Shown here piece by piece: positions 1-4,949 of a stretch of 5,203 nt of DNA (within the stretch, counting starts at the first letter, position 1; each line of letters opens with the position of its first letter). The translations under genes and the position numbers were made by a program. Origin of the DNA: an uncultured bacterium. GTDB lineage: Bacteria > Actinomycetota > Coriobacteriia > Coriobacteriales > Eggerthellaceae. The notes under the pieces were generated by a model, which did not search any database, was not told the origin of the DNA, and worked only from the letters and a program-made list of their open reading frames with translations. The stretch is taken from the NCBI GenBank assembly GCA_947649215.1, contig CANSQW010000118.1, forward strand, positions 1 to 5,203, in the 5' to 3' direction.

Positions 1-464
1 GGCTCGACTTCGCCGACCTTCCCTTCATGAACCAGGACACGGAGTTCCCTGCGCCCGCCGCGGTGCGCCGCGTCCGCGACGAGGTGGCGGCGGCCGACGC
101 GGTGTGGGTGTTCTCGCCCGAGTACAACCATGGCGTTCCCGGCGTGCTCAAGAACCTGCTCGACTGGCTGTCGCGCCCGCTCGATCCCGGCGGGTCGGAC
201 ACCGCGGCCAAGGGCAAGCCGACGGCTCTCAGCTGCGCCGGCGGCGGCGCCCGGGCGCGCTACTGCGCGGCCGACCTCATGGAGACGCTCACGTTCATGC
301 AGATGGACCTCGTGCAGACCGTCCACGCCCAGGTGGCGCTCACCCGCCAGGACTACACCACCGACGTGCTCCGCATGACGCCCGGCGAGGACGCCGCCCT
401 GGCCCTCCAGGCCGACCTGCTGATGGGGAAGCTCGCGGGGAAGCTGGCGCAGCCCCTTCTCTAG
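1..464 (+). CDS. NAD(P)H-dependent FMN reductase family flavoprotein, 3' part
   Basis: The frame is open from the window edge (first full codon at 3) to the TAG at 462-464, giving 153 residues; the start lies outside, and roughly 35-40 N-terminal residues are probably missing. The stretch AVWVFSPEYNHGVPGVLKNL followed by LDWLSRP is the hallmark of the flavodoxin-like NADPH-dependent FMN reductase family, where the SPEYN loop and the following helix contact FMN. A glycine-rich segment (CAGGGARARY) follows, as in family members. Such proteins are soluble cytoplasmic two-electron reductases using NAD(P)H to reduce flavin, quinone, azo or chromate-type acceptors; the physiological substrate cannot be told from this fragment. 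The gene converges on the carbonic anhydrase gene and shares stop-codon bases with it, leaving no space for a terminator between them. The ATG at 27 is internal to the domain and is not the start. The family call is firm, the substrate unknown. Confidence 0.9.
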   Translation, partial: LDFADLPFMNQDTEFPAPAAVRRVRDEVAAADAVWVFSPEYNHGVPGVLKNLLDWLSRPLDPGGSDTAAKGKPTALSCAGGGARARYCAADLMETLTFMQMDLVQTVHAQVALTRQDYTTDVLRMTPGEDAALALQADLLMGKLAGKLAQPLL

Positions 465-1057
465 AGGAAGTCGACGACGCCGCAGTGCGTGTGGTAGATG
501 GCGCCGCGCACCATGAGCCGGCCCGCGTGCTCGAGGGCGGCAAGCTCGGGCAGCGCGCGCAGCTCGGCGATGGCCGCCTCGGTGTTGCGGACGCTCGCCT
601 GGTAGGGGTCGCGCTCGCCCCGGAGGGCCTCGGCGATGCGCCCGGTGATGGGCGCGAGCGGCCCGGCCTCGCCGTCGAGCGCCGCCTTGATGGCGCCGCA
701 GTGGGTGTGCCCGAGCACGAGCAGCAGCCGCGTGTGCAGGTGCTCGCAGGCGTAGAGGGCGCTCGCGGCCTCCGTCGGCCCCACGACGTTGCCCGCCACG
801 CGGATCACGAAGACCTCGCCGAGGCCGGCCATGAAGATGTGCTCGGGGACGACGCGGGAGTCCGCGCAGGTTACGATGGTGGCGAAGGGACGCTGCCCGT
901 TCTCGAAGAGGTCGCGCACGCGCTCGGGCGACAGGTCGCGGTGGTGATCGAGCGCCTCCACGTAGACGCGGTTGCCCTCCACGAGACGCGCGAGCGCCTC
1001 ATCAGGCGGGACGTGCGCGTCGCCGTCGAAGTCGTCTGCCGTGTATCCGCAGGTCAT
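461..1057 (-). CDS. Beta-class carbonic anhydrase
   Basis: This complete 198-residue protein interconverts CO2 and bicarbonate in the cytoplasm. Zinc ligands of the beta class are visible: Cys64 and Asp66 in CADSR, then His117 and Cys120 in GHTHCG. Arg68 forms the usual dyad with Asp66. RVAGN (residues 86-90) is also a class signature. The length fits compact prokaryotic beta enzymes, and no signal peptide is present. The ATG at 1057 is chosen because AAGGAGG lies six bases upstream and the N-terminus leads into a normal helical region. A TAGAAT -10-like box lies about 30 bases upstream of the start. The gene is monocistronic here: it diverges from the XRE regulator and converges with the FMN reductase. 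One oddity is a second HTHCG at residues 189-193 near the C-terminus, repeating the zinc-ligand pentapeptide where many family members have other residues. Likely jobs are bicarbonate supply for carboxylations or pH balance; this is inference from the family. Confidence 0.95.
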   Translation of the reverse strand: MTCGYTADDFDGDAHVPPDEALARLVEGNRVYVEALDHHRDLSPERVRDLFENGQRPFATIVTCADSRVVPEHIFMAGLGEVFVIRVAGNVVGPTEAASALYACEHLHTRLLLVLGHTHCGAIKAALDGEAGPLAPITGRIAEALRGERDPYQASVRNTEAAIAELRALPELAALEHAGRLMVRGAIYHTHCGVVDFL

Positions 1058-1489: not shown

Positions 1490-2044
1490 ATGTCCGCTGA
1501 CCCCATCGCCACCTCCGCCGCACCTTCCGCCGACTCCGCCGACGCCGCGCCGGCTGCGCCCGCGCTGCGCAAGGCCGCCTTCGGCATGCCGGTGAGCGCG
1601 CTGCTTCCCCGCCTGCGTGAGGAGCGCGGCCTCACCCAGCAGCAGCTGGCCGACCGCCTCTACGTGACGCGCCAGGCCGTCTCGCGCTGGGAGCGCGGAG
1701 AGACGCACCCCGGCATCGACATGGTCAAGCTCATCGCCGCCGTGCTCGACGTGCCCGTGACCATGCTCATGGAGATGCCGCCCGAGGGCGCCTTCTGCCA
1801 GAGCTGCGGCATGTACCTCACGCGCGACGAGGATCGCGCGCACGCCGCCGACGGCACGCCGTCCGACGAGTGGTGCGCCTGGTGCGTGAAAGAGGACGGC
1901 GCCTATGCCGTCGACTGCACGATGGAGGAGATGATCGAGTTCTGCGCGCCGATGATGGCCCAGGCCAACGACGTGTCCCCCGACGACGCCGTCTCCCTCA
2001 TGGGCGCGGTGCTCCCCCAGCTCAAGCGCTGGCGCGAGGAATAG
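1490..2044 (+). CDS. XRE-family HTH regulator with C-terminal zinc ribbon
   Basis: This complete 184-residue cytoplasmic protein is probably a DNA-binding transcription regulator. Residues 1-28 are a low-complexity Ala/Ser/Pro leader. Residues about 36-92 form an HTH_3 (XRE/Cro-CI) domain, with LTQQQLADRLYVTRQAVSRW and then ERGETHP, the classic two-helix signature. Residues about 101-152 form a putative zinc-ribbon domain of the type CxxCGM...C-x2-C. The four likely ligands are Cys103, Cys106, Cys129 and Cys132, followed by DGAYAVDCTMEEMIEF, which is typical of that domain. Cys143 and Cys152 are additional. The XRE plus zinc-ribbon fusion recurs in anaerobic Firmicutes and Actinobacteria; its signal is not known to me, and metal or thiol/redox sensing is a guess from the cysteines. 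It diverges from the carbonic anhydrase gene across element E1 and converges on the small basic gene, whose frame overlaps its last 23 bases. Target genes are unknown; autoregulation is suggested by the dyad at 1418-1432. Confidence 0.9.
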   Translation: MSADPIATSAAPSADSADAAPAAPALRKAAFGMPVSALLPRLREERGLTQQQLADRLYVTRQAVSRWERGETHPGIDMVKLIAAVLDVPVTMLMEMPPEGAFCQSCGMYLTRDEDRAHAADGTPSDEWCAWCVKEDGAYAVDCTMEEMIEFCAPMMAQANDVSPDDAVSLMGAVLPQLKRWREE

Positions 2045-2321
2045 GGCGGGGAAGGGGAAGGGCCGGGGCCGGAGCGTCGCAGAGGCGCCCCGCGTTCTGC
2101 GCCAGAAAAGGGAAGGAGCCCCGAGAGGCTCCTTCCTGTCCGATCTGCCGACGCCAGGCCTGCTTGGCCCGGGCGCGGTTGTAGCGCGTGTCGCCGTGCG
2201 GGCCGTGGCCGCAGGCATAGCCGTTGTAACGCGGCTTGCCCGCCAGCGTGGCCTCCTCGGCCGTCTGGCGCCACACCACGTCGCCGCCGGGTGCGCCGCG
2301 GCGCTTCCGCTTCTTGGACAT
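2022..2321 (-). CDS. Small basic protein of unknown function; frame crosses a terminator hairpin
   Basis: I do not recognise a named family. The ATG at 2321 has a perfect ten-base Shine-Dalgarno sequence AAGGAGGTGA (2328-2337), strong evidence that it is translated. The full frame is 99 residues and ends at TGA 2022-2024, inside the 3' end of the XRE gene. Residues 1-73 look genuine: start MSKKRKRR, a WRQTAEEA helix, Lys/Arg-rich throughout (about +11 net), and a motif CGHGPHGD (Cys37, His39, His42) that could bind metal or nucleic acid. A 10-bp hairpin followed by TTTT on this strand falls at codons about 62-72. Beyond it the frame turns Pro/Ala-rich and overlaps the neighbour. No minus-strand frame has a stop between 2321 and 2025, so a transcript ending at the hairpin would lack a stop codon. 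That layout is known for the rescue factors ArfA and BrfA; assigning that role here is inference. The alternative is an ordinary small gene with a degenerate 3' end. Confidence 0.7.
   Translation of the reverse strand: MSKKRKRRGAPGGDVVWRQTAEEATLAGKPRYNGYACGHGPHGDTRYNRARAKQAWRRQIGQEGASRGSFPFLAQNAGRLCDAPAPALPLPRPIPRASA
2104..2136 (-). terminator. Rho-independent terminator-like hairpin inside the small basic ORF
   Basis: GGAAGGAGCC (2111-2120) and GGCTCCTTCC (2127-2136) pair perfectly over 10 bp around a six-base loop. On the minus strand the stem is followed by C and then TTTT (2109-2106), the order expected of an intrinsic terminator. On the plus strand no T-run follows, so it is a poorer terminator for the XRE gene, although it lies 67 bases after that gene's stop. 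The T-run is short, so efficiency may be partial. Confidence 0.6.
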
Positions 2322-2327
2322 ATCGCC

Positions 2328-2337
2328 TCACCTCCTT
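2328..2337 (-). promoter_or_regulatory. Perfect ribosome binding site of the small basic gene
   Basis: AAGGAGGTGA on the minus strand is complementary over ten bases to the usual 3' end of bacterial 16S rRNA. The core AAGGAGG ends nine bases before the ATG at 2321. It is the strongest site in the window and the main argument that this short frame is a gene. Confidence 0.85.
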
Positions 2338-2455: not shown

Positions 2456-4615
2456 ATGGGCGAGGGGGTCGTTTCCACCTGCCGTTTCTGCGACGGGGGC
2501 TGCCGGGTCGTCGGGGAGGCGGGCGACGATGGGCGCCTGCGCGTGGCGCCGGCGTCACCGGAGTTCCCGGCCATCTGCCCCAAGGCGGCGGCCGTGGACG
2601 AGTACCGCCTGCATCCCGACCGCCTGACGGTGCCGCTGCGGCGCGTGGGCGAGCGCGGCGCGGGGGAGTGGGAGCGCGTCAGCTGGGACGAGGCGCTCGA
2701 CGAGATAGCCGCTAAGCTGCGCGCCGTCATCGACGAGCACGGGCCCGAGGCGCTTGCCGTGGCGGAGATGCCGCTCAACATCGGGTTCGGCGGCGTCACG
2801 CGGAGGCTCATGAACGCGCTCGGGGCGGTCAACTACACGGCGCCCACGCAGCTGTGCATGGGCAACACCGCGCAGGTGCACCGTGCCGTCTACGGCTGGT
2901 TCGCCTCGCCCGACTGGGCGCGTGCCGATTGCATCGTCTACTTCGGCCAAGATCGCGACATGCAGCGCTGGCCTGCTGAGTACCTCCAGCTCAAGGCCGC
3001 GCTCGCTCGCGGCGCCACGCTCATCGAGGTGGATCCGCGCCTCACCGACACCGCCAGGCTGGCCGACTACCACCTGCGCGTTCGCTACGGCACCGACGCG
3101 GCCCTGGCCCTCGCGTGGATCAACGTCATCATCGAGGAGGGGCTCTACGACGCCGGCTTCGTAGCCGCATGGTGCGTCGGCTTCGACGAGCTGCGCGAGC
3201 GCGTGGCCGCGTGGACGCCCGAGCGCGCGGCGGAGGTCTGCGGGGTGGACGCCGAGCTCATCCGCCAGACCGCGCGCGTCTACGCAAACGCGGCTTGCGC
3301 CGTCATCCCCTGGGGCGTGGTGGCCGACATGCAGGTGAACTCCACGAGCCTGCTGCAGGCCCAGTGCATCCTGCGCGCCATCTGCGGCTACCTCAACGAC
3401 GGCGAGAACGTGTCAGGCCCGGCGCTCGGCGGCGTCGTGAACGCGCAGCTGGCCGCGTTCGAGATGCTCGCCCCCGAGCAGCGCGCCAAGCAGCTCGGGC
3501 AGGACGGCCCGCGCGCCCATCCGCTGCTCACCATGTGCGCTGCCGCGCTCTACCGCGACGCCACGGCGCGCGCGGGCATCCCCTATGAGCCGGACATCCT
3601 GGGCGAGTCGCAGGCATGCGACCCGTCGGCCCTGTTCGCGGCCATGCGCGGCGAGGGGCCCTACCCGGTGCGCGCGTTTTTCGCGGTGGGGAACAACACG
3701 GTCATGAGCTATGCGGGCCAGCAGGGGATCGTCGACGCGATCAGGGCCCAGGACCTGGTAGTGGTGTTCGAGAACTGGCTGACGCCCACCGCGCAGCTGG
3801 CCGACTACGTGCTGCCGGGTGACATGTGGGCCGAGCGGGACGTGCTGGGTCCTGAGTTCGACGTGGCGCCGGTGCTCACGGCCAGCTATGCCCTGCGCGA
3901 GCCGGCGGGCGAGTGCCGTGGATGGTATGAGGTGGCAAAGGGGCTGGCCGACCGCCTGGGCGTAGGCGACGCGCTTCCGTGGGCGGATGCGCGCGAGCTG
4001 TTCGACTGGCGCCTGGCGCCGATCGGCAAGACGTTCGACGATTTGCGCGACGGCCGGCCCGTGCTGGCCGAGGCGCCGGCACGCGGATGCTTCCTGACCC
4101 CCTCGGGCAAGGTGGAGCTGGCCTCCTCGGCGCTCGCGACGCTCGGGCACGATCCGTTGCCCAGCTACGTCGAGCCGTGCGACCCGGCGGCCGCGGCGGA
4201 GCCCGGGCGCTATCCGTACGTCGCGTTCGCCGGCCTGCGCGAGCGCGCGTCCTACAACACGAACTTCCACCAGATGCCGACCTTCCGCGCGCAGGCGCCC
4301 GAGCCGCTGCTGCTCATCAACCCGGCCGATGCCGCGGCCGAGGGCGTGGCTGACGGCGCGTGGTGCGTGGTGGAGAGCGCCTATGGGCGCGTGGAGCTGG
4401 TGGCGCGGCTCGATGACGCGCAGCCTGCGGGCAGCGTGCGCGTGCCGCATGGCTGGTGGAAGCCGGAGCTGCCCGGCGGCCTGGTGGGCGGGCTCTCGGC
4501 CGCGTGCCTCCACAACGACGGCATGCTCATGCCCGACGCGGAGTGGAACCTCGATCCGGTTCAAGGCGTCCCCGGCCTGCGTGGGACCGTGCGCGTGGCC
4601 GTTCGGCCGCGGTAG
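2456..4615 (+). CDS. Molybdopterin/[4Fe-4S] enzyme, acetylene hydratase-like
   Basis: This is a complete 719-residue catalytic subunit of the DMSO-reductase superfamily. The ATG at 2456 is preferred over upstream GTGs at 2423 and 2429 because GGGAGAGGGGG sits just before it and the iron-sulphur motif begins at residue 9. Cys9, Cys12, Cys16 and Cys41 should bind a [4Fe-4S] cluster. Asp13 directly follows the second Cys, as the catalytic Asp13 does in Pelobacter acetylene hydratase. Cys134, in NYTAPTQLCMGN, is the likely Mo/W ligand, 93 residues after the fourth cluster Cys (95 in acetylene hydratase, whose ligand is Cys141). Residues from about 585 form the C-terminal molybdopterin-dinucleotide-binding domain, with VPHGWWKPE at 663-671. 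There is no Tat signal and no adjacent iron-sulphur or membrane subunit, so it is probably a soluble stand-alone enzyme. Family membership is secure; hydratase-type chemistry is inference and the substrate is unknown. Catechol dehydroxylases of gut Eggerthellaceae are larger, exported relatives. Confidence 0.93.
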   Translation: MGEGVVSTCRFCDGGCRVVGEAGDDGRLRVAPASPEFPAICPKAAAVDEYRLHPDRLTVPLRRVGERGAGEWERVSWDEALDEIAAKLRAVIDEHGPEALAVAEMPLNIGFGGVTRRLMNALGAVNYTAPTQLCMGNTAQVHRAVYGWFASPDWARADCIVYFGQDRDMQRWPAEYLQLKAALARGATLIEVDPRLTDTARLADYHLRVRYGTDAALALAWINVIIEEGLYDAGFVAAWCVGFDELRERVAAWTPERAAEVCGVDAELIRQTARVYANAACAVIPWGVVADMQVNSTSLLQAQCILRAICGYLNDGENVSGPALGGVVNAQLAAFEMLAPEQRAKQLGQDGPRAHPLLTMCAAALYRDATARAGIPYEPDILGESQACDPSALFAAMRGEGPYPVRAFFAVGNNTVMSYAGQQGIVDAIRAQDLVVVFENWLTPTAQLADYVLPGDMWAERDVLGPEFDVAPVLTASYALREPAGECRGWYEVAKGLADRLGVGDALPWADARELFDWRLAPIGKTFDDLRDGRPVLAEAPARGCFLTPSGKVELASSALATLGHDPLPSYVEPCDPAAAAEPGRYPYVAFAGLRERASYNTNFHQMPTFRAQAPEPLLLINPADAAAEGVADGAWCVVESAYGRVELVARLDDAQPAGSVRVPHGWWKPELPGGLVGGLSAACLHNDGMLMPDAEWNLDPVQGVPGLRGTVRVAVRPR

Positions 4616-4622: not shown

Positions 4623-4677
4623 GGCGGGGCGTCGCGGAAGCCGCAGGCTGGCTGGCGTGCGGTTCTCGGGGCTGAAT

Positions 4678-4829
4678 TGGCCAAAAACGACGACTTGACG
4701 ACAAGGAGGGGACGTCCCCCGATGTTCTTCACGGCAAAAGTCCAGGTCGCAGAAGTTCTCTAGGGAGCACCTTGCCCCGATAGGGGCGAGATGCCGCCTG
4801 TGTTGTCGTCAGGCCGTCGTTTTTGGCCA
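4678..4829 (+). repeat. Inverted-repeat element E2, 152 bp
   Basis: The arms 4678-4704 and 4803-4829 are complementary at 25 of 27 positions, beginning TGGCCAAAAACGACG and ending TGACGACAA. The interior holds a perfect 12-bp palindrome GGGGACGTCCCC (4708-4719), GTTCTTC (4724-4730), CCAGGTC (4742-4748) and a small hairpin GCCCC-GATA-GGGGC (4774-4787). Element E1 at 1194-1345 has the same 152-bp length, similar TGGnCAAAAA ends and the same blocks in the same order on its minus strand. The element lies 62 bp after the oxidoreductase stop. It encodes no transposase, and no target-site duplication was seen. It could be a MITE-like mobile unit, a structured RNA, or a long-stem 3' end for the oxidoreductase transcript; the sequence does not decide. 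Confidence 0.8.
4722..4763 (+). other. 13-codon reading frame inside element E2
   Basis: ATG at 4722 opens a frame for MFFTAKVQVAEVL ending at TAG 4761-4763. AAGGAGG at 4703-4709 lies 12 bases upstream, a good core at a longer than usual distance. The equivalent part of element E1 has no ATG, and its conserved blocks are shifted by one base, so the peptide is not conserved between the copies. It is probably fortuitous. Confidence 0.15.
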
Positions 4830-4949
4830 TTTTGCGAGTGGAATTCTCCCGGGGGCGTTCGCCGGCATGTGGAAGCGCGCTTGGGCGGCGGCTCGGCTCG
4901 CGTCTGGCGACTAGCGAGTCGGGGCCGTCACCGGCCGTTGGCGCGGCGG
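4830..4949. other. Gene-free stretch between E2 and the acetyltransferase
   Basis: No convincing gene is seen here. Two weak GC hairpins, CGACT-AGCG-AGTCG (4908-4921) and GGCCG-TCAC-CGGCC (4923-4936), lie just past the acetyltransferase stop on its transcript. Neither is followed by a T-run, so a terminator is not supported. Together with 4616-4677, where I also see nothing definite, this flanks element E2. Confidence 0.4.

Follow-up and report, generated by a model that had tools for sequence, protein, structure and literature searches.

A stop-less gene of Coriobacteriia predicted to encode a backup ribosome-rescue factor, with a terminator-like hairpin in its reading frame

A small gene on the minus strand of the window, by which we mean the whole 5,203-nt stretch of DNA analysed here, is likely to be that of a non-stop-encoded backup ribosome-rescue factor; from the sequence, its mRNA is predicted to stop short at a hairpin within the coding frame. 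Related copies occur in many gut bacteria of the class Coriobacteriia. A preliminary description of this DNA had proposed an unrelated protein with ArfA/BrfA-like control, and the proposal is supported by the end of conservation at the hairpin, the hairpin-in-frame layout of 61 of 63 distinct relatives, the absence of ArfA similarity and the exclusion with ArfB-like genes. The features of the gene are as follows.

Positions 2328 to 2337, minus strand: Shine-Dalgarno sequence AAGGAGGTGA, read from the sequence; GGAGG lies at most 20 nt from the start in 59 of 61 relatives.
Positions 2106 to 2321, minus strand: the window gene, a candidate ribosome-rescue factor coding sequence of about 72 codons, Lys/Arg-rich, belonging to a conserved family and predicted to be translated from a truncated mRNA.
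Positions 2111 to 2136, minus strand: in-frame hairpin GGAAGGAGCCTCTCGGGGCTCCTTCC, a predicted intrinsic terminator and/or RNase III site.
Positions 2105 to 2110, minus strand: U-run CTTTTC after the hairpin, with the transcript end predicted at or just after it.
Positions 2022 to 2104, minus strand: unconserved open frame from the hairpin to a TAG, overlapping the end of the convergent gene (which ends at 2044).

Direct reading of the sequence placed the ATG at 2321–2319 on the minus strand, from where the frame stays open for 99 codons to a TAG at 2024–2022; this first in-frame stop lies at nt 297 from the ATG, 86 nt past the hairpin. The two other forward frames of the same strand carry no stop as far as scanned, and none between the ATG and the TAG. 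The hairpin consists of 11 pairs (7 of them G-C) and a loop of 4, is followed by CTTTTC and spans codons 62.7–71.3, so that the earlier wording of a 10-bp hairpin plus TTTT at codons about 62–72 was essentially right. The perfect Shine-Dalgarno sequence then noted was found again at 2337–2328, and the claim that no minus frame offers an earlier stop held in a scan of all three. The 45-nt hairpin stretch folds at −23.5 kcal/mol (z −2.85), none of 200 shuffles being equally stable, and 19 of 2,000 synonymous recodings of the segment fold as well. The terminator scan of the window returned 2 sites against a shuffle mean of 1.3, and a comparable in-frame hairpin followed by T was present in 16 of 163 background genes of related loci, from which frames overlapping the family gene had been left out. 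Taken alone, the window hairpin is only moderately above chance; since such hairpins are not rare in GC-rich frames, the case rests on the relatives.

Strong matches to the protein (E at most 8.7e-13) were detected in 22 of 100 related genomes searched, besides the window's own, and when 396 genomes of the class were searched with a profile, 53 held a family match. The scan of named genomes yielded 50 loci, including those of Adlercreutzia, Enterorhabdus, Parvibacter, Slackia, Ellagibacter, Gordonibacter, Aphodovivens and Eggerthellaceae; 49 titles belong to the Coriobacteriia lineage, and one reads uncultured bacterium. The protein database search matched 869 proteins, 120 of which are the matches listed. 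Merging genes that are identical over the first 160 nt left 63 distinct ones from 122 matches in 129 loci, and 62 of these were aligned (alignment A2), a damaged copy (L116) being left out. Residues M1, P30, G40, G43 and R49 are invariant in the 62 members, and K4, V16, W17, T25, L26, N33, C37, H42, K46, Y47 and W56 are nearly so. Ahead of the hairpin, the encoded proteins have a median length of 61 residues, a combined Lys and Arg content of 24.5% and, on average, a net charge of +11.6. A metal-binding C-x-H-x-x-H reading was dropped because other residues stand in for the C (L008), the first H (L018) and the second H (L021). Some copies are duplicated or decayed: genomes G340 and G350 each hold two, the second G350 copy (L117, from 639 onward) with a stem mismatch; the middle of L116 is disrupted and its hairpin intact; and L024 (genome G034, minus strand) is a damaged C-terminal remnant in which the hairpin sequence is still present.

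The preliminary description had suggested checking whether homologues keep the hairpin-in-frame layout and whether conservation stops there, and both were found. A hairpin precedes any in-frame stop in 61 of the 63 distinct relatives (60 by script and L117, with its one stem mismatch, by eye; the hairpins of L068 and L080 were re-located by eye), a layout far beyond chance; under the strict criterion used for the background genes the family scores 57/63. Among the 61, L018 and L073 reach the contig end with no stop seen, and L116 is the damaged copy. The two distant members L111 and L113 were left out of the hairpin statistics, which thus refer to 61 genes. Over 12 pairs in these genes, 91.8% of cells were paired, compared with 51–67% for partners slid by one or two bases, and 170 cells showed double changes, against a mean of 57.7 and a maximum of 73 in shuffles that keep relatedness. 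The codon phase at which the loop begins is 1 in most genes and 0 or 2 in the rest, differing between clades, so that the fold is preserved even as the amino acids encoded there vary. In 60 of the 61 genes the hairpin segment folds within the lowest 5% of its synonymous recodings. Pairwise identity, taken by bin, ran from 0.36 to 0.94 before the hairpin and was tracked by the hairpin-coded part (0.39–1.00). After the hairpin it was 0.28–0.34, the upper value coming from the top bin of 5 pairs, against 0.28 for shuffled tails, which is approximately the control level; pairs with a tail under 8 codons were left out of this comparison.

Among the genomes of 60 relatives, tmRNA was found above the cut-off in 53 and SmpB in 55; weaker tmRNA matches were ignored because archaeal controls gave such matches too. 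Both tmRNA and SmpB occur in 8 of the 9 genomes of this set that carry a strong family match, the exception being the window's own genome (57% complete), where neither was found. The ArfA model PF03889 matched none of the 60 genomes and, among 14 controls, E. coli only, so that it would not see BrfA. ArfB-like genes, counted at E at most 1e-8, scored below NCBI's cut-off in every genome searched; at 1e-6 ordinary release factors enter (105 versus 91 genomes in family f4, another family of the same order). Ten of 11 such genes match both halves of the ArfB model, and the two that were read have GPGGQ and a basic tail.

The gene family and ArfB-like genes were never found together. In the same 396 genomes the family is present in 53, an ArfB-like gene in 161 and both in none, about 22 being expected by a calculation uncorrected for ancestry. 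The window's own taxonomic family (f1, 138 genomes) has the gene family in 58 (56 long matches and 2 fragments), an ArfB-like gene in 17 and both in 0, while the 140 genomes of f4 gave 4, 91 and 0. Counted by genus, 19 and 7 of the 48 genera of the own family carry the one or the other and none is shared, the chance of no overlap being 0.02. These distributions, in which ancestry is taken into account only through the genus count, suggest that the gene family and ArfB probably fill the same niche. Neither gene was detected in 63 of the 138 own-family genomes, which indicates that a backup is not obligatory. Those 63 genomes may hold another backup or rely on tmRNA alone.

It is conceivable, though rather unlikely, that the same non-stop control governs a protein with another job: produced only on failure of tmRNA-SmpB, it might for example protect ribosomes, act in hibernation or signal stress. 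All of the hairpin evidence bears on the control rather than on the activity, and the many own-family genomes with neither gene would suit such a protein; however, in each of the three genome sets the family and ArfB-like genes exclude one another, which argues for a shared task, and of the 140 f4 genomes the four that carry the gene all belong to the 49 that lack an ArfB-like one. A backup rescue factor, the reading that we prefer, would be expected to combine the non-stop control predicted here with the features observed, a small basic protein, tmRNA-bearing hosts and the exclusion with ArfB.

The sequence around the hairpin bears on where the transcript would end. On the sense strand, 40 of the 61 hairpins are followed by a T-run of at least 4 and 54 by one of at least 3, whereas on the other strand the corresponding numbers are 0 and 9; 7 of the 61 hairpins are not followed by a T-run of at least 3. 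Sequence preceding the hairpin is rich in A (4.2 of 12 on average), which makes a weak role on the other strand conceivable. That A-richness, together with the convergence of the window gene on a helix-turn-helix gene, would fit an ordinary terminator, with the gene translated from read-through mRNA to the downstream stop or the hairpin serving the convergent gene. We judge this very improbable in view of the one-sided distribution of T-runs of at least 4 and of the part after the hairpin, which is unconserved and varies from 4 to 296 codons among relatives. A leader-peptide attenuator, in which the hairpin would regulate whether transcription continues into a gene beyond it and the peptide would be a sensor only, has the least to recommend it: the layout resembles that of attenuators in general, which have a terminator within a short reading frame or close behind it, but the next gene in the window lies on the opposite strand with nothing co-directional directly downstream, and conservation of the protein extends over about 60 residues, invariant positions included.

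The preferred reading, a backup rescue factor encoded without a stop, can be compared with the known systems. For both ArfA and BrfA, published work describes an mRNA that is shortened at a terminator within the frame or at a site for RNase III (PMC6881298, PMC8012679), and the arfA hairpin is both terminator and RNase III site (PMC8012679). The family resembles ArfA of Escherichia coli (PF03889) in being a short basic protein with an in-frame hairpin before the stop, poor conservation past the hairpin and tmRNA-bearing hosts, but it is without the KGKGS motif. The earlier view that there is no convincing similarity to ArfA is borne out by hhalign probabilities of 0.2% and 0.1%, and PF03889 is absent from the Pfam matches of the 62 members, the window protein itself matching 0 families. 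BrfA of Bacillus subtilis, compared by its published description rather than by its sequence, has an intrinsic terminator in its coding region that gives a protein of about 62 residues (PMC6881298) and is likely limited to Bacillus according to a review (PMC8012679); the terminator-like hairpin predicted inside the coding region and the Gram-positive host are points of likeness. With ArfB/YaeJ the family would share the backup role, and the two never co-occur; however, ArfB has a GGQ hydrolase domain, whereas no GGQ occurs in the family proteins listed, and the window protein has no family match. ArfT is likewise small and basic, and scarcely annotated if at all. Its 40 residues include a KKGGSTNKK stretch, and its gene lacks a terminator ahead of the stop codon (PMC6299226), whereas the present family has another conserved core and the in-frame hairpin, and no KKGGSTNKK-like stretch was seen in the proteins listed. 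A profile search of solved-structure chains listed four unrelated molecules (E 0.33–1.2) and no rescue factor. The family shows features of non-stop-encoded rescue factors, namely a small basic protein, conservation ending at an in-frame hairpin and a host with tmRNA-SmpB, and by analogy it may be classed with ArfA and BrfA in its presumed mode of action, without being counted in either family.

By the same analogy, a course of events can be proposed. RNA polymerase would terminate at the hairpin and U-run, or RNase III would cut the hairpin, and ribosomes would reach the mRNA end after about 72 codons with no stop met. As long as tmRNA-SmpB works, the growing chain would receive the tag and be degraded. 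Once that system is lost or can no longer cope, basic protein without a tag would build up and enter the empty mRNA channel of stalled ribosomes. There it may recruit a class-1 release factor, leading to cleavage of the peptidyl-tRNA. Because a GGQ motif is missing from the family protein, an ArfB-type hydrolase is unlikely and the cut would fall to a release factor; rescue therefore probably proceeds through a release factor, as with ArfA and BrfA.

The distant relatives are more varied. L111 (1080–1301) and L113 (1052–1258, minus strand), distant members in f4, end at an ordinary stop with no hairpin before it, the stop falling approximately where the hairpin would begin, and L110 and L112, also of f4, have an in-frame hairpin of quite different sequence. 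The preliminary description had named homologues with an ordinary stop before the hairpin as a refutation of its proposal; L111 and L113 fit this in part. Proteins of similar ordinary length also occur among the wider protein matches, for example P0243 and P0292. Relatives of 54 residues with ordinary stops were located on two IMG/VR contigs, which are predicted to be viral, the first one found sharing 41% identity over query residues 20–60.

3300028887_000154, positions 2962 to 3126 (L138): 54-residue relative with an ordinary stop, on a predicted viral contig.
3300033463_001043, positions 2001 to 2165 (L140): 54-residue relative with an ordinary stop, on a predicted viral contig.

The stretches fetched around L138 and L140 contain 6 and 4 tRNA genes, respectively, which fits a translation role, and the ordinary stops of these two relatives suggest that the hairpin is a separable control. 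Around the chromosomal gene, tRNA genes are no general feature in 47 sources (the window and 46 of the 50 named loci), and deposited phages gave no match with L138 and L110 as queries. On balance, we lean towards the view that Coriobacteriia own a stop-less, self-limiting backup rescue factor which would have originated independently of ArfA and would replace ArfB in many lineages. It would belong to a wider superfamily whose distant members, predicted phage copies next to tRNA genes among them, have ordinary stops; the in-frame terminator may then be a separable control that a pre-existing ribosome-rescue protein either gained or lost.

The neighbouring genes of the window are as follows.

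Positions 1490 to 2044, plus strand: convergent neighbour, a helix-turn-helix and Zn_ribbon_2 protein (open reading frame list and family search).
Positions 2423 or 2456 (start) to 4615, plus strand: molybdopterin oxidoreductase, related to formate dehydrogenase alpha and below the curated cut-offs of the NCBI models.
Positions 461 to 1057, minus strand: carbonic-anhydrase-like protein (family search).

Two small intergenic elements with imperfect inverted ends look MITE-like. One (1163–1346) has inverted arms at 1193–1217 and 1322–1346 (25 nt, 92%) and a second direct copy at 1162–1191; the other (4675–4832) has inverted arms at 4675–4704 and 4803–4832 (30 nt, 90%).

General searches gave little further information. 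The window protein had no match in Pfam, NCBIfam or plasmids, Rfam gave none in the window, and a sequence search of solved structures returned nothing at E below 0.3. Scans of the 62 members gave scattered, weak matches (best E 0.019 in Pfam, 0.017 in NCBIfam and 0.0086 in PHROGs), which we read as chance, and the UniRef label "DUF5872 domain-containing" on relative P0109 received no support from the Pfam scan. Confidence in the AlphaFold2 model is low (mean pLDDT 64.8, pTM 0.28).

A literature search on ribosome rescue, tmRNA or non-stop in Coriobacteri, Eggerthella or Adlercreutzia, with preprints outside its scope, found no report, and the titles of the wider rescue-factor literature announced no such factor in Actinobacteria. 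Burroughs and Aravind 2019 (PMC6514570) describe a wider ArfT family and a sporadic absence of ArfB in actinobacteria, and the string "Coriobact" is absent from the main text of that paper. A survey of 15,259 genomes, 3,213 of them Actinobacteriota, counted arfA in 1, rqcH in 0 and arfB in 2,245 of the latter (PMC11633108). If the present reading is true, the family would fill part of this rescue-factor gap in Actinobacteriota, and stop-less self-control of a rescue factor would have arisen again in another phylum. Moreover, the combination of an in-frame hairpin, the end of conservation and exclusion with ArfB would then provide a computable sign for further rescue factors.
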